Shown: positions 1 through 10,509 of the stretch, piece by piece
How positions within the stretch are numbered: the stretch's first letter is position 1
How the letters are laid out: each line of letters opens with the position of its first letter
From: Candidatus Woesearchaeota archaeon
GTDB lineage: Archaea; Nanobdellota; Nanobdellia; Woesearchaeales; UBA11576
Length of the DNA: 11,631 nt
NCBI GenBank assembly: GCA_016219765.1
Contig: JACRKM010000071.1
Span: 1 to 11,631, forward strand
Direction: 5' to 3'
Translations under genes and position numbers: made by a program
Notes under the pieces: generated by a model
Database searches by the model: none
Told to the model about the DNA's origin: nothing
The model's input: only the letters and a program-made list of their open reading frames with translations

Positions 1-931
1 CCTTGCTTTCCGTTGTTGCAAGCTCCGCACGCATTTGTGCAGAGATCGTCGCGATCACACTGCACACCTGGGAAACATACGTGAACTCCTGCTCCACTTC
101 AGAGAACTCGTGCAGCAGCGCTTCAAATGTCGTTGATTCGTCTGCAGTGATCTCATCAAGACCTGCGTGGAGCCGGCGCAACTCTGCAAGATTCTCCCGC
201 TCACTGCTGATCGTGCCCTGCAATCTTGCAAGCTCTTCAAGCGCTTGTTCAAGCTTTGCAAGTTTCTTATTGCGCGACTTCACCTTTGACTGCTTATCTT
301 TTATCGTGTCAAAATCGCCCTGCAAGGACGCCACAACTGCCGAAATCAAACTGCGGTCATCTTTATTTTCTTCTACAAGCCGCTCAAGGTCAAACGCGAC
401 GCCGCTTTTCTTGAGGGCCATGCCGATCGCGAGCTGGCCCCCGACTGTATCAGGTGAACTTCCCGAAGGCAAAATCTTTTTTAGCGCCATGCGAATCTTT
501 TTTCCAACATCCCATTCTGAACGCGCACGCGCTTCTACTTTACGAACACGAACTTCCCGTTTCCTTTGCTTTTCCGAAAGTTGCTTTGCGAGCGCAGATC
601 TTCCAAGCAATTCCGCCTCATCTTCGCTCAACACAGTTTCGATGAGTGAAGGCGCCTTCTTTTTTGAAACGAGAGAGACGAGACGCTGGCGGTTTTCATA
701 CAATAAATATAAGATCATGATTCCGATTGCAATGGCAGGGACGAACCAGAATTCCGAGAGATCTTCAAGAGTGATCATGCCAGAGAGCTGGTTACTTGCC
801 GCAGAACTTTGTGCTTTGACTGAGGAAGTGAGAAAAGCTGTGTACGTCGCAAGAAGAGTTCCGGTCCCTACGACCCGCAGCGCCAGCGTCAATGCCGGAG
901 TCTTTTCTTTTTTAATACGGTCTTTTTTCAT
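1..931 (-). CDS. Membrane-anchored coiled-coil protein, 3' end outside window
   Basis: An open frame of 310 codons starts at ATG 931-929 and runs off the left edge without a stop, so the C-terminus is missing. Residues 1-11 are Lys/Arg-rich, 12-40 form a signal-peptide-like hydrophobic stretch ending in SSVKA, about 20 polar residues follow, and 61-78 (starting FWFVPAIAIG) is a transmembrane segment followed by NRQR and KKK. Positive-inside reasoning puts the rest in the cytosol. From about residue 100 it is highly charged and helical, with heptad-like coiled coil strongest around 205-260 (NKKLAKLEQALEELARL). The ATG overlaps the TGA of the upstream gene as ATGA, which suggests translational coupling and a shared complex. 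Its plan (leader, short ectodomain, one span, cytosolic coiled coil) matches the upstream 722-residue protein. I do not recognise the family, and no enzymatic motif is visible. The long plus-strand frame over the same bases is a shadow. Confidence 0.85.
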   Translation of the reverse strand, partial: MKKDRIKKEKTPALTLALRVVGTGTLLATYTAFLTSSVKAQSSAASNQLSGMITLEDLSEFWFVPAIAIGIMILYLLYENRQRLVSLVSKKKAPSLIETVLSEDEAELLGRSALAKQLSEKQRKREVRVRKVEARARSEWDVGKKIRMALKKILPSGSSPDTVGGQLAIGMALKKSGVAFDLERLVEENKDDRSLISAVVASLQGDFDTIKDKQSKVKSRNKKLAKLEQALEELARLQGTISSERENLAELRRLHAGLDEITADESTTFEALLHEFSEVEQEFTYVSQVCSVIATISAQMRAELATTESK

Positions 932-3096
932 ACAATGGCCTCTTCTGCTGCAAGGGACTGCCATAATTCACGAACACCTGCTTTCTCATCACTCCAGCTG
1001 CGTGCGAGTTTTAGTGTTTTCATCAAGCCTGCCTTTTGAACATCTTTTTCCAATTGCGTAATCATATCTTCAAGCGCTTTATGCCGCGCAGCATCTAATA
1101 CCTCTCCCGCTTTGATCTTTGCAGCAAGATCATCCAATGGTGGCGGCAGTGCGACTGCTTCAAGATCTTTTGCAACAACTTCGGCCGCAAGATGCTGACT
1201 CTGAGCCTCTTCGCTTAATTTTTGTTTCACGTATGCAAGATTCGCGTTCTTTTCAGCTGCATTCTTTCCAGTTCGAATGAATAAGCGGATAGTTTTTTGC
1301 TCAATCTCGATCTCCTGAGCAGTACTATAATCTTTATTGACGATTATCCGGTCAAACATCTCCTTGAATTTTGTTGCATCGTACTTGTTCAGCGCTTGAC
1401 GCAGTTTGTTGATCTTTTTCTTGTGCTCTTCATGTAATGCCTGTCCCCCGACTCGCGAGACCCGCTCAACAAGATCTGTAACCACTTTGACGTCTCCAAT
1501 CTGTTCGTTTTGCAACTGCTGCTCTGCATGCTCCAAAAGCTTTCCGAGTACCGCTACACGCAGCTTTTGTACTTGTCCTTTGATCTTGGCGTCTTTCGTG
1601 TCAACTTCTGAGACCATCGCACGCTGCAAAAGCTTCAGCGCTTCACCGATCTTCTCCTTTTCTGCTGTCTTGACGAGTTCCCCAATCTTTTTCACAAGTT
1701 CTTTGATCGTCTTTTCACGTGCTTCGACGAGACGCGGCAGTGCGGCCTTGACAATTTTTCTCGCCTCATCGCTCAATTCACGAAGATCAAGAAGCCTTGC
1801 ATTCTTCTCCACAATCGACGCAAAATAGACGATGCGTTCATAGCTTGGCTGCTGTGCAGCCAACTCGCGCTTTGCCAGTTCGAGATATTCCTGCAGTTTT
1901 GTTGTTTCTTTGCCGCTTAATTCAGTCACGTCAAGCTCAAGCTCTTTAAACTTCTCCACTAAGTCTTTGAATGTTCGCACCTTCTTTGCGAAGAGTGCAT
2001 TGAGCTTGATCGCATTATCGCGCAAGTTGCGGATGTCAAGCAGGATTGCCTGATAATTTGCCTCACCACGCTCAAGACGCATCAATTCATCAATCTCATT
2101 GTTCAACGAGAGATGGATTCCTTCGCAGGCCGTTTCCAGCGCTTGAAAGTCTGCGATCGTTTCGTTGAAGTGCTGCTGCAGCCTGTCGAGAACACCGGCT
2201 TCTGCAAGATCAACATTCTGCAACATTCGCAAGCCCTCATCGGCCTTTCTAAACGCTTCATGCACGTTCTTAACATTATTCATTGCGGCAAACACTTCTT
2301 CTTTCTCTACGCGGATCCTGTTGATGTCATTGACACCTTCGTTAAGGTGCTCTGTCGCTTTGATCGCCGCATTTTTCTCAGCAAAATTATGGGCGCGCAA
2401 TACCTGCAGCTTCTCATTGATCTTTGATGAACGTTCCAGTTCACCCGCCAGCTCCTTTTCTTCACCGATCGTCTCTTTGACGTGCTCAGTGACCTGCGTA
2501 ACCAGGTTTCTGCATTCATCAAATGTTGTCTGCTCCGCCGTCAGCTGTGTGTGAATCTGCTGCGCGTCTCCCTTCACTTCTTCTTTTATCCTGATTAATT
2601 TCTTTATAAGATCGATAAGGACAGATTCTGCATCTTTTCCGACGATCTTCTTGAACCAGCTTCCCTTGTACCCAATAAAGCCAAGTATGAGCACCGCAAG
2701 AACTCCAAGACTTCCAAGACCATACGGGACTGCCTTCTGCAGTGGACTCTTCTTTGCTTCCTCTTCGGTTGCGGGCAGATCCTCTGCAAGTTTCTTATTC
2801 AACAGGTCATGAAGGGCGGGCTGCGTTGTCACTGCTGCTAAGAATGCGGGACTGGTGCTAATTTGGCTGAGCCGTTCTTGGCTTTTCGCATTGCTGATGG
2901 CATCTGAGAGCGCTTGGTCGCGAACATTGGCGAGCCTTTTGACAAGATCGTCCACTTCTGTTTGCGTTACTGCGAGAACAACAGGAGTGATAATTAAGAC
3001 GACGATTAAGACGATGAGCAACACCTGCGCCCACAGGCGTAACACAGGGTTGCTGTCGCATCGTTTTCTCTTACCTAGTTTTTTTGTTCTGTACAT
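928..3096 (-). CDS. Two-span membrane protein with long cytosolic coiled coil
   Basis: The 722-residue protein begins with a basic N-terminus (KKLGKRKR). TM1 or an uncleaved signal anchor lies at about 21-43, a polar, probably extracytoplasmic segment of about 80 residues at 44-123, and TM2 at about 127-143. About 575 residues follow that are almost entirely charged and helical, with many Glu/Lys/Leu heptads, consistent with several coiled-coil segments or a helical-repeat rod. Positive residues after TM2 (YKGSWFKKIVGK) place the rod in the cytosol. The ATG at 3096-3094 is preceded by a purine-only stretch (GAGAGAGAAAG on the coding strand) that can act as ribosome binding site. The gap to the upstream gene is 55 nt, and the downstream gene overlaps by 4 nt. 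It resembles SMC-like or tethering proteins only in composition: there is no Walker motif. The family is not recognised; a structural or scaffold role is inferred. Confidence 0.92.
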   Translation of the reverse strand: MYRTKKLGKRKRCDSNPVLRLWAQVLLIVLIVVLIITPVVLAVTQTEVDDLVKRLANVRDQALSDAISNAKSQERLSQISTSPAFLAAVTTQPALHDLLNKKLAEDLPATEEEAKKSPLQKAVPYGLGSLGVLAVLILGFIGYKGSWFKKIVGKDAESVLIDLIKKLIRIKEEVKGDAQQIHTQLTAEQTTFDECRNLVTQVTEHVKETIGEEKELAGELERSSKINEKLQVLRAHNFAEKNAAIKATEHLNEGVNDINRIRVEKEEVFAAMNNVKNVHEAFRKADEGLRMLQNVDLAEAGVLDRLQQHFNETIADFQALETACEGIHLSLNNEIDELMRLERGEANYQAILLDIRNLRDNAIKLNALFAKKVRTFKDLVEKFKELELDVTELSGKETTKLQEYLELAKRELAAQQPSYERIVYFASIVEKNARLLDLRELSDEARKIVKAALPRLVEAREKTIKELVKKIGELVKTAEKEKIGEALKLLQRAMVSEVDTKDAKIKGQVQKLRVAVLGKLLEHAEQQLQNEQIGDVKVVTDLVERVSRVGGQALHEEHKKKINKLRQALNKYDATKFKEMFDRIIVNKDYSTAQEIEIEQKTIRLFIRTGKNAAEKNANLAYVKQKLSEEAQSQHLAAEVVAKDLEAVALPPPLDDLAAKIKAGEVLDAARHKALEDMITQLEKDVQKAGLMKTLKLARSWSDEKAGVRELWQSLAAEEAIV

Positions 3097-3100
3097 ATCT

Positions 3101-3120
3101 TTTCTCTCTCTTTCTCTCTC
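3101..3120. repeat. Two tandem 10-bp units, TTTCTCTCTC
   Basis: A perfect 10-bp direct repeat lies just upstream of the 722-residue gene's start. Read on the coding (minus) strand it is a GA-only tract 5-24 nt before the ATG, where a Shine-Dalgarno sequence would sit. Slippage at this tract could change ribosome binding, but that is inference. Confidence 0.8.
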
Positions 3121-3151
3121 CCTCTTTTCATTTTCTTGTTTTGTCTGTCTC

Positions 3152-3973
3152 TTATTTTGTCAGTCGGTCGATGTAGTCCTGAGCCTTGTTTGCGCGTTCT
3201 AAATCATCCTTCACCTTGCGCGGGTCTGTTTCTGTTCGCTGCGCTTTCGCCCACGCAGCTGCTTCATCGAACAATTTCTCATCAATCACTTTCTGCAGCG
3301 GTCCACTCGGAATACCCGGAGTTGGTCCTGCCGGTGCGCTTGGTCCGCCGAACAGGCCATCAAACCAACTCGTGATTCTTCCAACGATCGATGTCTTTCC
3401 TAAAAGGTCTGAAAGCAGGGGATTCTTGTCACAACTGCCTTGACCACACAATGAACTTAGCGTGAAACCCAGGATCAGCACCGCAAGGGTGATCGCGATG
3501 ACAAAGGAGAGTATCCTGCTTAGCGCAGTCTCGCTTCTGAATACCAACCGCTGCAGGATGAATGCGAGCCCGGCAATAACCAATAGAAAAATCAGCAAAC
3601 TTGCAAATGGCAACAGCTTTTTCACGCCAATATTGCCTCCAAAGACGAGCGCTGCCGACAGCGCAATGGCGAGCGTGACCGACAATGCGATCGCCGCGCT
3701 TTTCGCGCCTTCGAACCACTTTTGGAACCCAAGCCAGCAGAGTGCAAAGAACATGATTCCAAACAGGATGAAGTCGAAGAAGCCGGGCGTCTCTGAAGTG
3801 AACCAGCTGCTGACAGTTCCGCCAGTGCTGGAGAATGCATCAGTGAAGCGAGAAGCTGATGCGCTGGCTGAAGTTACAAAAACGATTAAAAGAAGGAGAC
3901 TTGCAAGTATCAGCAGGCGATTTCTCTTATTACTCTTATTATGATTTTTCTTATAATTTGTGGGCTGCTTCAT
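3152..3973 (-). CDS. Polytopic membrane protein with extracytoplasmic CxxxxC pair
   Basis: The 273-residue protein has a basic, Asn-rich N-terminus (1-18) and a signal-peptide-like segment at 19-40 ending in an Ala/Ser run (SASASAS). Four spans follow at about 65-84, 92-111, 119-143 and 151-173. Directly after the last span lie Cys176 and Cys181 (CGQGSC), which would face outside if the leader is cleaved, so a disulfide is plausible. A Pro/Gly linker (about 208-225) leads to a charged helical C-terminus. The start region (a signal, a short Gly/Ser/Trp segment, then two spans joined by a basic loop of about 8 residues) resembles the start of the 501-residue gene two genes upstream, suggesting distant paralogy. 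An in-frame TAA shortly upstream of ATG 3973-3971 rules out a longer start. It sits between two coiled-coil genes. The family is not recognised. Confidence 0.9.
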   Translation of the reverse strand: MKQPTNYKKNHNKSNKRNRLLILASLLLLIVFVTSASASASRFTDAFSSTGGTVSSWFTSETPGFFDFILFGIMFFALCWLGFQKWFEGAKSAAIALSVTLAIALSAALVFGGNIGVKKLLPFASLLIFLLVIAGLAFILQRLVFRSETALSRILSFVIAITLAVLILGFTLSSLCGQGSCDKNPLLSDLLGKTSIVGRITSWFDGLFGGPSAPAGPTPGIPSGPLQKVIDEKLFDEAAAWAKAQRTETDPRKVKDDLERANKAQDYIDRLTK

Positions 3974-3984
3974 TGTCTCTTCAG

Positions 3985-4031
3985 TCGCTTCATTGCATTA
4001 TCGCTTCATTGCATTGTCTCTTCATTGTCTG
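3985..4031. repeat. Imperfect tandem 16-bp repeats in intergenic linker
   Basis: Unit TCGCTTCATTGCATTA (3985-4000) is followed by TCGCTTCATTGCATTG (4001-4016) and a decayed third copy from 4017 (TCTCTTCATTGTCTG). On the coding strand this repeats the AATGAAG found at the real start codon of the next gene (3973), so several out-of-frame decoy ATGs precede the true start. The units look like slippage products. Confidence 0.85.
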
Positions 4032-4044
4032 TTGTGACCACGAG

Positions 4045-5505
4045 TTATGCGGCCTTTTGCCGCAGTTCATCAACTTCTTTACGTTCGCCAGTGGCCTGCT
4101 CTGCTGCTTCATGAATAAGCTGATCGTGTCTCTCATGCATTGCATCAACTTTTTGCGCGTATTCCTTCAGTTTATCGTAAAGTGCAACCTGCTGTCTTTT
4201 AACCACAACCACCTTATCCAGCGCGGGCGCCAAGGCGTTTTGGAAATGCTGCATGAGAGCGTTTCGCTGTTTTTGATACTCCTGTTCACTTATCTCCCCG
4301 CGTCTTGAGCGTTCGTCGAGGTCATGCAGTCGCTGCCAGAATGCTGCATTGCTGTTAACGACTCTCAAAATGTAGCTGCTGATCTTGAGATACTCTTCGA
4401 CAGTGTTCTTGATGGTGGCCGCCCCTTCATCTTCCACTTCCCGCGCGGTCAGCATGCTCCTCATCTCCTGCATCCTGCGTTCTCTGATACGTTCGACCTT
4501 CTCAAGATCCGCCGCGTGTTTGTGTTCGATATCGAGAACGCGTTTGGTGATGGAGCGTGCAATCGATGCACGTTCTTCATCAAGCATTTCATCTGCGTGT
4601 TTCAGGTAAGCCTTTACGATGCCGTGAAGATCTATCAGCGCGTCGTGTTCTGCCTGTTTGAGGCTTTCAATACTCTGCATCTTTTGGATCATTCCCATCA
4701 CGAGCTCCCACGCCTTTGCACGATCAAATCCTTTTGATGTAAACTGCTGCAGCACTATCTTTGCATAGTAGGGATCGCCATAACGGTCCCCGATTTCCTT
4801 GCATTTTTTCTTAAGCAACTGCAGCTGCGCACCAATCTTGTCCGGCCGCGTCCACATTTCTTCTCCAAGCGGGATCTTTGCACCCTGGAATGCCTGGATA
4901 TCCTGCGCATTTAGGACTGTTGGCGGAATGGTTCCAAGTTCTTCCTTAAACAGCATCATGTAGAGAATCTCTTTCCATTCACGAACTTCTGCGATGTACT
5001 GTCTGATGTGTATGAGTTTCTGTGATGCACGCAGTTTTCTCAGAACATAAGATTTTGGATACGTGGTTTCAAGATACTTTTCAAAGTCGTTCAACTGCAC
5101 GACGCACTGCTGGAATTCCTTCGCGCACACATCGCCTTTCTGAATCTGAGCGAGGATCTTCCTGAAATATTCTATCTCTTCCCGCGGGGCGACCGCGCGC
5201 AGCTTTCGTGCAGCTTCTCTCACTTCTTTCGCGAGCTTCAGATCATTGAAACTTTCGACCGTTCTTGCAATCTGTTCGTACTGCTCAAAGAACATCGAAA
5301 CCAGCGATCGAATATCTGCAAGGAATTTGCCAATCACTTCTTCCTGCAGGTACTTCACTTCTCTGCCCTCAAGACTTTGTTGAAATTTCTGCATAAGCTG
5401 TTCATCGAGCCGAATGACGTCTTCGGTACTCGAGGCGTAAAATTCAGCGTTTCTATCGACGTGTGCTGGGTCGCTTCGTTGTTCGTCGGTTGTTCTTGCC
5501 ATCAT
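4045..5505 (-). CDS. Soluble all-helical, coiled-coil protein
   Basis: From ATG 5505-5503 this is a 486-residue protein. A GTG two codons upstream (5511) and an ATG one codon downstream (5502) are also possible, and no strong Shine-Dalgarno sequence separates them. No signal peptide or membrane span is present, so it should be cytosolic or peripheral. It is charged and helical throughout. Residues of about 330-390 are strongly coiled-coil-like (for example ADLEKVERIRERRMQEMRSM), and the last 60 residues form another long charged helix ending in DELRQKAA. Cysteines are few and no catalytic motif is visible. It lies between two polytopic membrane genes (65 nt and 71 nt gaps), which suggests a cytosolic adaptor for the membrane subunits or a partner of the two anchored coiled-coil proteins. 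I do not recognise the family. Confidence 0.9.
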   Translation of the reverse strand: MMARTTDEQRSDPAHVDRNAEFYASSTEDVIRLDEQLMQKFQQSLEGREVKYLQEEVIGKFLADIRSLVSMFFEQYEQIARTVESFNDLKLAKEVREAARKLRAVAPREEIEYFRKILAQIQKGDVCAKEFQQCVVQLNDFEKYLETTYPKSYVLRKLRASQKLIHIRQYIAEVREWKEILYMMLFKEELGTIPPTVLNAQDIQAFQGAKIPLGEEMWTRPDKIGAQLQLLKKKCKEIGDRYGDPYYAKIVLQQFTSKGFDRAKAWELVMGMIQKMQSIESLKQAEHDALIDLHGIVKAYLKHADEMLDEERASIARSITKRVLDIEHKHAADLEKVERIRERRMQEMRSMLTAREVEDEGAATIKNTVEEYLKISSYILRVVNSNAAFWQRLHDLDERSRRGEISEQEYQKQRNALMQHFQNALAPALDKVVVVKRQQVALYDKLKEYAQKVDAMHERHDQLIHEAAEQATGERKEVDELRQKAA

Positions 5506-5576
5506 GATCACGGTGTTTTGATGCTCTTTGTTATGCTGTTTTATGCCTATTGTTATCGTATCATTTGTTATTGTAT

Positions 5577-7082
5577 CTACCGTAGCGTTGGCGGTGTTTG
5601 AGGCGGCGGCGTCACAGGCGGCTTGGATTGTTGCGCTTGTTGTGCGGGCGTTGCTTGCGGTTGCGGTTTTGAACCTGCTTGCTCTTGTGCTGCTTGTTGC
5701 TTTGCAGACGGCTCTTGTTCCTGCTGTTGCCCTGCAGGATATCTTGGCGGTATCATTACAGGTATGCCCATTTCCCGTGCCATATCATACAGGTCCATCT
5801 GCTTCTTCTCCTCAAACTGGATTGCCTGCTGCAATGTCTTGATGCGCTGCCAGTCTTCGTCTGAGAGAGGCTGGCCGCGAAATGCTTTTGCGTAAATTTT
5901 CTTGATCTCTTCGCGGAATTCTTCAGCTGTCTTCGGTTTTGGACGCTCCATCTTCCCGGTGAAGTCCTTAAACCATCCAAGGATCGGCAACGATTGCTTG
6001 AGCGCGTCCCATGGCCTCTTCGCCTTCATGAGATCGTCCACTTTCTTCTGGCGTTCTTCATCGAGTTGCTTGAAGTACTGTGCAAATATGCCGCCCCCTT
6101 TGCCGATAAACGTGTTATACAGGAAACTGATGCCAAATCCGATACCGATGTAGATAACAACCCACCAAATGGTAATGCCCTGCGGCTCGACAGGCTCGAA
6201 AAGTCCTCCGAGCAGCGACGAGCCCAGAAGGTTTGCAATGATCTGTACAAACGCAAATGCAAGGCCCAATGCCAGACCAGCATTTCCTTTCTCACCCATC
6301 GACGTCTTGATCCTGGCGTAGATGACAATGACTAAGATCCAGCCGCCCATCACGATAATCTGATTCTTCGTCGCACCTTGATTCGCGATCAGCGCCGCCA
6401 GGTATACGGGCAGGATAATCACGAGTTTTGATGAGCCACCTTCGCCCATTCCCAACTGTCCTTTGTACACGCTGAAGATCACATACAAGACGAGGAACGT
6501 GATGATCAGTGCAGGAAGCCCTTTGCCAGATTCGCCGATGCGCAGGATTGCTTGGCGGCACGCCACTCCACGGTTGCCCGGCAAGACCTTTGCATATGCA
6601 CCGTCGCCTTCGCATCCGGGTTGTGTAATTTCACCGGCCGGCTTGCCAAACGTGAATCGCGTGATGTCTGCTACAGTTCCCTTTTCCCAAAGGTACAAGT
6701 TTCCTTGCGGAATCAATTGCACGCCAATGATGACAGTACCGATTAGGCACAATCCCCAGATCGCGTACTTCTGCTTCTCATCCTGCGCATGTTCCTTAAG
6801 GAAAATCATCTGCAATATGAAGAGGAGTGCAAAGAGAACAAAGAAGTTCACGAACATCTTTACATTCATGTAGAGTTTTGCACTCTGCCACCATCCGCCA
6901 ATCGAGCCGATGCTTGACTTGACAGAACCCCATCCACTCCGGACACTGTCTTTAATTTGTGCTTCCACCACGAATGCGCTTGCCAATAATACTGCGATTG
7001 AGATTGCAAGCAGGATGATAACGCGGCGCTGTGTAGTTTCACGATCCGATCGTTGCGTCAGTCTTTTCATGTTTCTTTTCAT
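5577..7082 (-). CDS. Polytopic membrane protein with Cys loop and Pro/Gln-rich tail
   Basis: The 501-residue protein has a basic N-terminus, a signal-like segment at 20-42 (ending FVVEAQ), and predicted spans at about 75-95, 106-124, 189-206, 218-234, 241-257, 269-287 and 304-322. The positive-inside rule puts loop 125-188 outside; it contains Cys157 and Cys175, a likely disulfide. Short Lys/Gly-rich loops and the long C-terminus (about 330-501) face the cytosol. The tail is charged and helical to about 450, then low complexity, rich in Gln, Pro and Ala and ending TPPPQTPPTLR. It is the largest membrane subunit of the gene train and a natural candidate for its central channel or platform. The overall shape recalls VirB6/TrbL-type proteins of secretion systems, but I see no sequence match. 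Two near-identical start contexts exist (ATG 7082 and ATG 7070), so the start is uncertain by 4 codons. The upstream ATPase gene ends 41 nt away. Confidence 0.9.
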   Translation of the reverse strand: MKRNMKRLTQRSDRETTQRRVIILLAISIAVLLASAFVVEAQIKDSVRSGWGSVKSSIGSIGGWWQSAKLYMNVKMFVNFFVLFALLFILQMIFLKEHAQDEKQKYAIWGLCLIGTVIIGVQLIPQGNLYLWEKGTVADITRFTFGKPAGEITQPGCEGDGAYAKVLPGNRGVACRQAILRIGESGKGLPALIITFLVLYVIFSVYKGQLGMGEGGSSKLVIILPVYLAALIANQGATKNQIIVMGGWILVIVIYARIKTSMGEKGNAGLALGLAFAFVQIIANLLGSSLLGGLFEPVEPQGITIWWVVIYIGIGFGISFLYNTFIGKGGGIFAQYFKQLDEERQKKVDDLMKAKRPWDALKQSLPILGWFKDFTGKMERPKPKTAEEFREEIKKIYAKAFRGQPLSDEDWQRIKTLQQAIQFEEKKQMDLYDMAREMGIPVMIPPRYPAGQQQEQEPSAKQQAAQEQAGSKPQPQATPAQQAQQSKPPVTPPPQTPPTLR

Positions 7083-7086
7083 GTTC
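7063..7086. repeat. Tandem 12-bp duplication carrying both candidate start codons
   Basis: CTTTTCATGTTT (7063-7074) and CTTTTCATGTTC (7075-7086) match at 11 of 12 positions. Each holds one in-frame ATG on the minus strand, so the duplication added or removed four codons (MKRN) at the N-terminus of the 501-residue protein. Confidence 0.8.
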
Positions 7087-7123
7087 GTGCAATTATGGTT
7101 GTGTGATTATTCGGGTTGTGTGG

Positions 7124-8353
7124 TTATGAGATGAGTTTCTTCACTTGTTCAATTTCCTCGCCAGCGGCGTCTTTGCTTAGCTCAAGCCCTGCGAAATATG
7201 CCTTGCACCAATTCTTGACAATCGGATTCTGGAATTCAAACGTCGAGTCTTTCTTTTTTATCAAATCAACTTCACCAAGACGATCAAGCAAGCTCTTCGT
7301 GACAGGCCCAGAACGATAGACTTTGCGGGCGATCTCTGTCAGACGTAAATTGTCGTGCAACGCAACAACACGCACGATGCTTTTGAGCAATGACGCGCCA
7401 CGCGCGTGCACGAGCGCCGTGGAAAACTCTTCTTTTGTATATTGATAGATCAATGATGCGGGTGACGCGATCTCTTGAGCAAAGATATCCTTGATTTTTG
7501 GGACACTGGCAACATCTTTGACATTGATGTGCGCCTGTACGAGTTTTTCCGCCAGCGAAACTGTCACCGACGGAATTCCTGCACACCAATGATGCATTTG
7601 CGCAGCGACACGCTCGTCCATCTTTCCAAGGATCTTTTCTGCAAGTTGTCGAGTCTCCTGTGCAGAGAAGGACTCAAGATTGACTATGTCGAGGCTCTGC
7701 GTGTCGAGGCTGTGCGAGAACCGTTTGCGCATCTCGCTCACGAAAGAACTAATGAGAATATAGACGACATTTTTGGACCGCTTTGTAGCGTCAGCAAACA
7801 GTTGCGCACTATCGCGAATCTGCGGAAAGTTGTCAAAGCCAAGTAGCTGTTCTGCATCATCGAGCGCAATGACTAACTTGCGGTTGTTGTCCGCTGCAAA
7901 CTGTTCCGCACACGCGAAAGCCTGCGTCAGGATCAGCCGCTGGTCAGGCTTGATCTTCTGAAGTTCGTTGCGTATCCTTGAAAGAATCTCCCTTACTTCT
8001 CCACTGTATTTTTGCTGCAGAAGAAAATCGATGTCCTCATACGCCAAAGCGCCACCGGCTTGTGCGCGGTCATTCGCTGCTGCAATGCTGCCGATGAATT
8101 CCTGTGCAAAATTCTCTGGAGAAATGCTTACGCGTGCAAGGTCAAGCGCGACAAAGGTCGTGTTTGCAGACCTGCTTTTGTCTTTCTTCTCCGACTCAAA
8201 CAAGTCGCGTACAAGCAAGGACTTGCCAAGGCCACAGGGTGCAAGAAGAAGCGTGTGCTTGCTGTGCGAGATATTGCGCCTGATAATATCCAGATAGCGC
8301 TGTCTAGGACAGTATAGCGATTTCTCCCGATTTGACAACTCGTTCTGGGGCAT
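7124..8353 (-). CDS. Archaeal P-loop ATPase (AAA/STAND-like) with winged helix
   Basis: From ATG 8353 the protein has 409 residues; a TTG nine codons upstream (8380) is possible but lies at the predicted transcription start. Numbering from the ATG, the Walker A motif APCGLGKS is at about 38-45, the Walker B strand KLVIALDDAEQL at about 159-170 with two Asp, and a sensor-1-like strand NVVYILISSF follows at about 195-204. A helical lid includes HHWCAGIPSVTVSLAEKL, like the G-x-P element of the archaeal ATPase_2 (PF01637-like) group. A C-terminal winged helix (about 340-385, LTEIARKVYRSGPVTKSLLD) ends in FQNPIVKNWCKAYF, resembling the typical [D/N]P-[I/L]-x-x-[K/R]-W ending. It differs from Orc1/Cdc6 in lacking the usual GxxGTGKT and DEID forms. 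As first gene of the train and the only ATPase seen, it may power or regulate the membrane complex, or control transcription through the winged helix; both are inferences. Confidence 0.88.
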   Translation of the reverse strand: MPQNELSNREKSLYCPRQRYLDIIRRNISHSKHTLLLAPCGLGKSLLVRDLFESEKKDKSRSANTTFVALDLARVSISPENFAQEFIGSIAAANDRAQAGGALAYEDIDFLLQQKYSGEVREILSRIRNELQKIKPDQRLILTQAFACAEQFAADNNRKLVIALDDAEQLLGFDNFPQIRDSAQLFADATKRSKNVVYILISSFVSEMRKRFSHSLDTQSLDIVNLESFSAQETRQLAEKILGKMDERVAAQMHHWCAGIPSVTVSLAEKLVQAHINVKDVASVPKIKDIFAQEIASPASLIYQYTKEEFSTALVHARGASLLKSIVRVVALHDNLRLTEIARKVYRSGPVTKSLLDRLGEVDLIKKKDSTFEFQNPIVKNWCKAYFAGLELSKDAAGEEIEQVKKLIS

Positions 8354-8374
8354 GACCTCTTTTTCCCCGTCTTT

Positions 8375-8386
8375 TACCAATTGGTA
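8375..8386. promoter_or_regulatory. Perfect 12-bp palindrome at ATPase transcription start
   Basis: TACCAATTGGTA reads the same on both strands and sits over the predicted start site of the ATPase-led train. The position suits a dimeric repressor site. No regulator is identified, though the ATPase itself carries a winged helix. Confidence 0.5.
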
Positions 8387-8407
8387 TATAGTCTAAATGA
8401 GCAATTA

Positions 8408-8415
8408 TATTTAAA
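8408..8415 (-). promoter_or_regulatory. Archaeal TATA box for the ATPase-led gene train
   Basis: The coding-strand sequence AAAGCTTTAAATATAATT holds a classic TTTAAATA box preceded by a purine-rich BRE-like stretch (AGAAAAGC). A start site 25-27 nt downstream falls near 8385, giving a leader of about 30 nt to ATG 8353. This favours that ATG over the TTG at 8380. Confidence 0.7.
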
Positions 8416-8795
8416 GCTTTTCTAATCGGTTCGCCTGCTTCCCGCTTGTCAAAGCGATCTGTGAAAAACGCCGGGAGTTGCCGTCGATGTCCGAATGTGC
8501 TACTGGCTGTTTGCAATCCTATCGCCGCGGCTGCCTCCAGCTCGATTTCGGAGACTAATTTGTGGCTAATTATTCGATATGCTTTTTGGTATATATCGAA
8601 TCTGGCAATTATACCGAACAGGAGATTTACTATATAAATCTTTGCTCCTATTCTGAAGTATGTCTTCCAATTTGGCATATATGCAGAATGGTATAAATGT
8701 GTATGTTTTAATCATTGTATACCATCAGTCGCAATTAGTGGAGCACAAAGCACGTTTTACGATGTGCCTGAAAGCGCCACTTACCCTTTATTTTC
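8416..8795. other. Intergenic stretch without a supported gene
   Basis: No convincing gene is seen. The stretch holds the 9-bp inverted repeat at 8572-8601, the left arm of another inverted repeat (8781-8790), and plus-strand TATA-like elements at 8631-8638 (TATATAAA) and 8690-8697 (GTATAAAT). These could once have served the broken Fic gene downstream. GGTATA or TATACC recurs at about 8383, 8588, 8609, 8689 and 8718. A 124-codon minus-strand frame crosses the region but overlaps the ATPase gene and contains its promoter, so it is not called. Confidence 0.5.
8572..8601. repeat. Inverted repeat with 9-bp perfect arms
   Basis: ATTCGATAT (8572-8580) and ATATCGAAT (8593-8601) flank a 12-nt spacer, GCTTTTTGGTAT. 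It lies in the gene-poor stretch upstream of the ATPase promoter. It could be a protein-binding site or a remnant; nothing decides between these. Confidence 0.6.
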
Positions 8796-8818: not shown

Positions 8819-9097
8819 ACTCCATCCTCTTGCCCTAGCGACAATATTTCACCACAGAGTTGAGAAGATACATCCCTTCATGGATGGAAACGGCAGACTG
8901 GAAGGATGCTGATGAATCTCATAATGCTCAATAACAGATACCCTCCAATAATCATCAAAAAGAAGAACAGGCAGGAGTACCTTCAAGCACTAAACAACAC
9001 AGACAAAGCAAAAACAACGGACGACCAACAATACAAAAAGCTGATAGATATGACAGCACAAGAGCTCACGAGCAGTTATTGGAATATATTCTTATGA
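8796..9097 (+). pseudogene. Fic-domain protein remnant, truncated and frameshifted
   Basis: Fic enzymes transfer AMP or other phosphate-bearing groups to target proteins. In one frame from 8823 the sequence reads HPLALATIFHHRVEKIHPFM, containing the alpha helix before the active site, and continues into DGNGR. The Fic signature HPFxxGNGR, with catalytic His and anion-binding residues, is therefore present at 8871-8897. Two codons later the frame meets TGA. The frame entered at about 8903 resumes the family pattern with RMLMNLIMLNNRYPPIII, then KKKNRQEYLQAL, to a stop at 9095-9097. Inserting one base near 8901 would join the two halves. The N-terminal half of the domain, including any inhibitory helix, is missing: an in-frame TGA lies at 8769-8771 and no family pattern is seen before about 8820. 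No functional protein is expected. Confidence 0.85.
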
Positions 9098-9161: not shown

Positions 9162-9419
9162 TTACTCAATCTTGACCTTTTGCCCAACCGCCTGGCCAGG
9201 CATCCCTGTTGCAAACAGAACACGAAGCGCGCCGCTATTGCCGTGCGCACTGCGGACTTCACCAGCGATCATCTTCTTTGCTGGAGAGGCCCAGACTACT
9301 TTCTTTCCAACAAGCTCCGAAGCTTTTTTCTTCGAATCCACGCCTTTGACGACAACAACCATCTGGTTTTGGACCTGAGAGTGGACGCTTGAACGATAAT
9401 TGACAATTGTGCCTTCCAT
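9162..9419 (-). CDS. rpl35ae: Large-subunit ribosomal protein eL33 (L35Ae)
   Basis: This is a small basic protein of the 50S ribosomal subunit, found in archaea and eukaryotes. The 85-residue product begins MEGTIVNYRSS and contains the family's landmarks: QNQMVVVVKGVDSKKKAS, then LVGKKVVWASP, then a Lys-rich segment, AHGNSGALRVLF and the terminal GMPGQAVGQKVKI. Length and the diagnostic hGN-x-GALR and PGQA-x-G segments fit the archaeal family. A GTG three codons upstream (9428) is possible, but the TATA box at 9449-9456 predicts transcription starting near 9426, so ATG 9419 with a leader of roughly 7 nt is preferred. No Shine-Dalgarno sequence is visible. The gene converges on the broken Fic gene and has its own promoter, so it need not be linked in function to its membrane-protein neighbours. 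Confidence 0.95.
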   Translation of the reverse strand: MEGTIVNYRSSVHSQVQNQMVVVVKGVDSKKKASELVGKKVVWASPAKKMIAGEVRSAHGNSGALRVLFATGMPGQAVGQKVKIE

Positions 9420-9448
9420 ATTGATCACGTTTGAGTTTTTTGAGGGTG

Positions 9449-10299: not shown

Positions 10300-10509
10300 C
10301 AGCTCTGTAGAAAATAGTGCCGGCACGCTCACCACCACCGCCTTTTCGCGAGAGATGGAAAGAAACACGAACCAGCCGACAAGGGGGGCGTCCATAACGG
10401 GGAATGTCGGCCATGAAAAAACGCCGACATATCACGAGCCTGGCGTGGTGGTGAGCGAGCGATACGTAGAGTATCGCGGTGCCGGCCAATTAAGATTTTC
10501 TATAGAGTC
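10300..10509. mobile_element. MITE-like or structured-RNA element, long inverted repeat with 8-bp flanks
   Basis: The direct repeat TATTAGAA at 10292-10299 and 10510-10517 brackets 210 bp. CTCTGTAGAAAAT (10303-10315) pairs with ATTTTCTATAGAG (10495-10507) through one G.U pair. GTGCCGGCAC (10317-10326) pairs with GGTGCCGGCC (10478-10487). GCTCACCACCAC (10327-10338) pairs with GTGGTGGTGAGC (10445-10456). The right arm carries an extra hairpin, GCGATAC/GTATCGC (10459-10465 and 10471-10477). Inside lies ATGTCGGC/GCCGACAT (10404-10411 and 10423-10430). The interior is GC-rich between AT-rich flanks. The flanking 8-bp repeat favours an inserted, non-autonomous element. The nested helices and the plus-strand TATA box about 25 nt before the structure would also fit an RNA gene of about 200 nt. 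No transposase is present, and I see no SRP or RNase P signature. Confidence 0.65.

Follow-up and report, generated by a model that had tools for sequence, protein, structure and literature searches.

A Lineage-Specific Operon of Woesearchaeota-Type Archaea and the Envelope-Spanning Complex It May Encode

What might six co-directional archaeal genes build when only one of their products resembles a named protein fold? The genes, here called A to F, lie on the minus strand of an 11,631-nucleotide (nt) stretch of DNA (the window), which is the entire contig JACRKM010000071.1 (C31) of a Candidatus Woesearchaeota archaeon (GCA_016219765.1; 1.09 Mb, 178 contigs, 81% complete). A first-pass annotation had read them as an ATP-driven envelope machine; the single evolutionary unit and the expected location of its products at the membrane held up, whereas the ATP-driven motor was only partly supported, catalytic motifs being eroded in several relatives. 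We propose, with a probability of roughly 0.5, that the six genes of the window open a lineage-specific Woesearchaeota-type operon for one envelope-spanning complex, a regulated scaffold with a STAND-type switch. Judged from sequence, A and B (with C and a four-transmembrane [4-TM] module) are co-conserved, D and E occur as a fusion, and the operon of relatives continues into a giant coiled-coil protein with FHA or phosphatase domains and into 4-TM or secreted OmpA-like proteins.

The pair A-B is the most constant part. Gene A (minus strand, 7124..8353) encodes an AAA/STAND-like ATPase of 409 amino acids (aa) from its ATG, with a TTG at 8380 as alternative start and a C-terminal winged-helix-like motif; gene B (minus strand, 5577..7082) encodes a polytopic membrane protein with a cytosolic tail, predicted from hydropathy to have a signal-like helix and seven transmembrane (TM) segments. 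The gene directly downstream of A is B in 38 of 40 distinct loci with downstream sequence (loci, genomes, contigs and families carry the prefixes L, G, C and f); in the two exceptions, A does not carry the family signature. Of these calls, 37 came from the strict first B profile (weakest E value, 1.3e-7) and one (L134) from an iterated profile, which drifted (107 hits) and was not otherwise used in the count. The 40 exclude L042 (whose contig stops within A and which belongs to the L025 genome), the duplicates L105, L106, L116, and L121, and a piece of the interrupted A gene of L043. In 28 of those 38 loci, the longest frames of A and B share 4 nt; the window has a 41-nt gap instead. A single-sequence search found B in 11 of 98 relatives, and two Cys residues of B (157 and 175) are conserved in 6 of 13 rows of an alignment that includes the window. 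B had no noteworthy match in Pfam, NCBIfam, or PDB. Protein-database searches, with ~8,000 candidates scored per search and the query protein included, returned at least two and at least four matches for B and at least three for C, those named by their source being "hypothetical protein."

Gene C (minus strand, 4045..5511), which encodes a soluble helical protein of 488 aa, was traced by profile comparisons with relatives. The C profile of the window's family (f1) matched position-3 genes of family f10 (P, 88%; E, 2.9e-6) and L029 (94%), and the f10 profile reached ≥70% with 9 of the 12 single genes compared from other loci. All six control pairs stayed below 1%. In leave-one-out comparisons, 12/12 f10 genes and 7/8 genes of the window's family held, the window's own C at a P of 100% in its family. 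Neither C nor B gave a credible match to solved structures.

Gene D (minus strand, 3152..3973) encodes a signal-like helix and a 4-TM module whose Cys pair (176/181) is predicted to face outward, and gene E (minus strand, 928..3096) encodes a membrane-anchored protein whose coiled-coil arm of ~580 residues is predicted from hydropathy to be cytosolic. One long protein replaces both in L019, L020, L021, L025, and L026; in BLAST against the L021 fusion, the window's D aligned with the N-terminal part (E, 3e-36) and its E with the C-terminal part (E, 5e-25). Families f1, f10, f43, f76, f79, and f83 share the signal-plus-4-TM module of D, and protein H of relatives carries a D-like module as well (P, 99.4% against the D-E fusion profile). 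Of 16 aligned D and D-like rows, 14 retain the Cys pair after the last TM segment. The neighborhoods thus show A adjacent to B, C and the 4-TM module present in other families, and D fused to E; homologues of A and B scattered singly, which the first-pass annotation had named as counterevidence, were not found. Short direct repeats with 14- and 16-nt units lie at 3968-4033 of the window (D start and C-D gap).

The annotated extent of the train (1 to 8,420) needs revision: the six genes stand, and F (minus strand, 2..964; open at the contig end) is only the N-terminal 321 residues of a giant coiled-coil protein, G. Since the window is a whole contig, the train does not stop at base 1, and the operon is cut inside its sixth gene. 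G reaches 1,610 to 1,687 aa in five relatives and is heptad rich (z, 11.5 in L022). F is likewise truncated by the contig end in L030; a same-genus F, which reaches 592 aa, scores 1.9e-23 with the G profile and 5e-10 against G of L022. E and F/G share an arm stretch (E, 3e-4 and 7e-6). The C terminus of G carries an FHA domain in L019 and L021 and a calcineurin-like phosphatase in L022 and L026 (L020 gave no Pfam hit), and G of the same-genus locus L125 has three FHA stretches; a YscD-like match (PF16697) was also found in L125. In relatives, FHA, metallophosphatase, and OmpA domains all occur with scores that pass the curated cut-offs. Opposite-strand open reading frames (ORFs) lie between the D-E protein and G in L019 (12238-13344, 368 aa) and L020 (10470-11678, 402 aa).

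H, the gene after G, encodes the 4-TM module and in L022 also an OmpA domain, Cys-rich modules, and one further TM segment. PF00691 on H exceeds its 27.2-bit cut-off in L022 (31.4), L133 (37), and L028 (33.6), and the H profile matched solved PAL/OmpA/YfiB chains; a Pfam scan found no PF00691 in the window's own proteins. Contig C111 of the window's genome carries homologues of the last L125 genes (OmpA-type and FHA proteins), the FHA-protein homologue being 79% identical over 486 aa and truncated ahead of its FHA part. In two relatives, the gene after H encodes a papain-like protease. Divergent genes beside A in L031 (969-5069), L034 (4378-9480), and L022 (16067-19999) encode giant secreted proteins whose OmpA-like match, close to the N terminus, is sub-threshold. 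An ISGC motif, which we take to be lipobox-like, stands at the start of H in L020 (3133-5376), L021 (3-1760), and L042 (6236-7969), and H may be lipid anchored in these three relatives. A motif pattern that required the Arg caught 9 of 13 scanned OmpA-like proteins, and in all nine the position at which the peptidoglycan-binding Asp would presumably stand is Ser; the ligand here is thus probably not bacterial peptidoglycan.

For ATPase A, Pfam returned AAA_22 (2e-5), AAA_16 (2.2e-5), and ATPase_2 (0.0028) at 25.4, 25.5, and 17.9 bits, every score under its curated cut-off (27, 32.6, and 33.2). Against solved structures, the A profile matched PDB 2fna at 4.7e-7, which we take to be an archaeal protein of the STAND/ATPase_2 kind (the entry itself says conserved hypothetical protein). 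Among 36 aligned A rows longer than 300 aa, 34 carry a family signature, variants of NELxKIKP and YRSxPVTKSL. In these 34, Walker A is kept as GK[S/T] in 28 and reads GRT in three and GKE, GKR, and CKA once each. Walker B, usually Asp-Glu, is Asp-Asn in 19, Asp-Glu in 4, Asp-Asp in 3 (the window, L018, and L120), and Glu-Glu in 1, with no Asp in 6 and a gap in 1. The NELxKIKP and winged-helix motifs vary little, the latter (C-terminal, conserved, and by sequence helix-turn-helix-like) ranking among the most conserved parts of A. With catalytic motifs eroded and the winged-helix motif near invariant, a nucleotide-dependent switch or scaffold fits A better than a processive motor and is our best reading of this protein.

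The system appears confined to one lineage. A 17-row A profile matched 40 of 352 genomes of the window's order at 1e-15; two of these (G173 and G241; loci L135 and L136) were rejected as members because they have neither the signature motifs nor a neighboring B. Most genomes have one match. In a sample of the phylum, 21 of 371 genomes matched, all in the window's order (G173 included), and two peptide patterns run over 84,980 species gave 15 loci, of which L044 ("DPANN group archaeon") and the "Omnitrophica" contigs could not be placed by order. In the A tree, f1 (96/88) and f58 (100/100) form clades, as vertical inheritance would give; f10 is interrupted only by L039 (family unknown), the two f79 rows stand apart, and the deeper order is unsure because of long branches. 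Two contigs titled "Omnitrophica WOR_2 bacterium GWA2_47_8," MHFY01000038.1 (L039) and MHFY01000046.1 (L043), carry this archaeal operon, and the record may be misnamed or mixed; the L039 ATPase groups with L037 of f10, and the L043 ATPase gene is split over two frames. OmpA domains occur in 12 of 98 relatives, namely in 9 of the 17 that have A and 3 of the 81 that lack it (Fisher p, 2.6e-6); none was found in archaeal control genomes, which makes their use here unusual. Kinase-type domains occur in 96 of the 98. Very long open frames elsewhere in the order (G033:C21, G047:C25, and G016:C36) have FHA matches (12,045 and 6,282 aa) or a kinase match (17,312 aa).

Within the window, the ORF coordinates agree with the first-pass claim of six co-directional genes with gaps of at most 71 nt: intergenic distances are 41, 65, 71, and 55 nt, and E and F overlap by 37 nt. 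The six proteins are 76 to 86% identical to those of the same-genus contig JACQXV010000090.1 (L030), from the nearest named relative, another Candidatus Woesearchaeota (A, 77%), and third codon positions vary most (63/44/138 for C), which indicates purifying selection on all six and hence six real genes; their order is kept in other genomes, making a chance arrangement very unlikely. Hydropathy agrees with the topology first assigned (B, signal-like helix plus seven TM segments; D, plus four; E, two; F, one, with two in the same-genus relative; A and C, none), and Pfam, NCBIfam, PADLOC, and PHROGs returned nothing over cut-off or of note for B, C, D, E, and F, in line with the first-pass statement that only the ATPase fold could be named. 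Heptad periodicity is seen in the tails of E (z, 5.4) and F (z, 5.1); the value for C (z, 3.5) says little alone because the unrelated L35ae scores 3.7 in the same test. By this topology, the membrane would contain B and the D/H modules, the OmpA-like and Cys-rich domains would face the exterior, and the arms of E and F/G would extend into the cytosol. The "single clear TATA box" is not demonstrably single. A TATA-like site, TTTAAATA (minus strand, 8408..8415; consensus match only), lies 62 nt before the ATG of A and is the best placed, but further matches upstream of A begin at 8390, 8595, 8636-8638, and 8697. The same three patterns found no site in the four gaps and thus gave no sign of separate promoters there. 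A bacterial promoter scan was uninformative (13 sites against 11.8 expected).

Several results weigh against one conserved scaffold. The f1 C profile alone misses C of L028, L035, L037, L041, and L043 (≤2%), the f10 profile falls short for L028 (29%), L133 (10%), and L041 (0.4%), and L025 failed in leave-one-out (4%). The G profile found no match in the fetched loci of other families. The OmpA match of H stays below cut-off in L020, L021, and L026, and in the window's genus (L125) H has none, the domain lying on a 500-aa protein three genes on (24.5 bits in one scan, 27.5 in another), after which an FHA protein follows. Searches of the window's 81%-complete assembly recovered neither the remainder of F nor protein H, whose sole match there is D itself. 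Outside the window's family, the OmpA association shrinks to 2/8 against 3/80 (p = 0.06), so kinship explains much of it, and FHA domains (7/17 genomes with A, 15/81 without; p = 0.056) have no firm link to the operon. Finally, the window's own A retains GLGKS and LDD, and with GKS and Asp-Asp in place it may still hydrolyse ATP.

One rival is an ATP-powered machine for secretion or attachment, along the lines of the first-pass annotation, in which A would be the energy source and B a channel or platform, exporting proteins or holding a partner cell. Walker A retention in 28 of 34 A proteins speaks for it, as do the giant secreted proteins with sub-threshold OmpA-like matches beside A, the protease gene downstream of H in two relatives, and a sub-threshold match of F to the type VII effector model TIGR04197 (0.0022). 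We nonetheless consider it unlikely: several lineages lost the catalytic motifs while keeping the operon, and the six proteins have no match over cut-off to an export or pilus ATPase, secretin, pilin, or FtsK-type protein in Pfam or NCBIfam and none of note in PHROGs.

The conserved winged-helix-like motif could instead make A a DNA-binding regulator of its own operon, adjoining an envelope operon whose other proteins form no complex with it. The winged helix also belongs to the STAND fold, however, and the 4-nt A/B overlap in 28 of 38 loci, with B the one constant partner, leaves this explanation improbable. Lower still we place a STAND-based conflict or defense system, with A sensing an invader and B and D as membrane effectors. 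STAND-like ATPases are common in such systems, presence is patchy (40/352 order genomes), and PADLOC gave a weak mad8 match to A (3e-4, 18.4 bits); yet this was its best model for A, others were weaker, and none was strong, A is mostly single per genome with f1 and f58 forming clades, the L35ae neighbor in 8 loci of 4 families is unlike mobile defense islands, and the set includes large structural proteins. A provirus or mobile element was rejected, as viral contigs held no relative of the system and PHROGs gave no strong match.

In the regulated scaffold that we prefer, A would act with B as a STAND-type nucleotide switch controlling how the complex assembles or which state it adopts. That state would be coupled to Ser/Thr phosphorylation through the FHA domains and, in some lineages, through a phosphatase borne by the same arm, and OmpA-like domains would hold an envelope component outside the cell; the whole would join cell surface and cytosol rather than work as a processive motor. 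More tentatively, the operon may represent an undescribed class of archaeal envelope-spanning machine, vertically inherited in one DPANN order, in which a STAND-type switch and phosphorylation-reading arms of up to ~1,700 residues control an OmpA-anchored surface structure, perhaps a host-holding apparatus. DPANN archaea are considered to live mostly on other cells. The operon (ATPase switch, unnamed membrane core, giant FHA coiled-coil arms, and OmpA-like domains) offers a short gene list to localize, and a STAND protein wired into a structural complex would, if true, be unusual. No description of the gene set was found in open-licence literature, including the available portions of PMC4158269, PMC11329633, and PMC11420986.

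Upstream of the operon, the window carries a ribosomal protein L35ae gene (minus strand, 9162..9428; Pfam, 2.2e-15). L35ae lies near the operon in eight loci (the window and seven others) of four families; it was not seen in 14 further upstream stretches, a soft result in that the ORF filter also missed the window's own copy. A Fic-family gene remnant (plus strand, 8847-9097) comprises a 21-residue piece with HPFMDGNGR (PF02661, 1e-6), closed by a stop codon, and after it a 63-residue ORF that is read in a different frame and has no Pfam name. An intergenic inverted repeat (10323-10460) has 16-nt arms, 94% complementary and 106 nt apart. No tRNA or Rfam feature was found in the window.

How does the operon compare with known systems? 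Against type IV filaments and archaella, the six proteins gave no GspE/FlaI ATPase, GspF/FlaJ, or pilin match over cut-off, and against type VI and VII secretion, neither they nor 50 further proteins of relatives gave a sheath/ClpV, FtsK-type, or WXG match in Pfam. Bacterial secretion systems with FHA and OmpA parts include type VI (TagH and OmpA-type subunits), type VII (EssC), and type III (YscD). The likeness to these is a membrane complex with FHA domains, including the YscD-like PF16697 match in L125, but no FtsK-type or ClpV ATPase, sheath, or secretin match was seen here, and B and C match nothing named. The attachment cone of Nanobdellota is a large DPANN envelope structure that bridges to the host, with no genes named in the accessible part of its description (PMC11420986); the operon's ATPase was confined in the phylum sample to the window's order. 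Archaeal "dark matter" membrane and secretion loci are likewise lineage-specific operons of unknown membrane proteins, but those in the available text are pilus-like and none has this gene set (PMC4158269). OmpA/Pal-like anchors (PF00691) share the domain found on H of some relatives and on several secreted proteins; here it is archaeal and sits partly on a 4-TM membrane module. A itself appears to share with archaeal STAND/ATPase_2 ATPases (PF01637, AAA_22, AAA_16; PDB 2fna and 2qen, among its best solved matches) a P-loop AAA core and a C-terminal winged-helix-like motif, and differs from them in falling below all Pfam cut-offs, in its own signature, and in its constant membrane partner, B.

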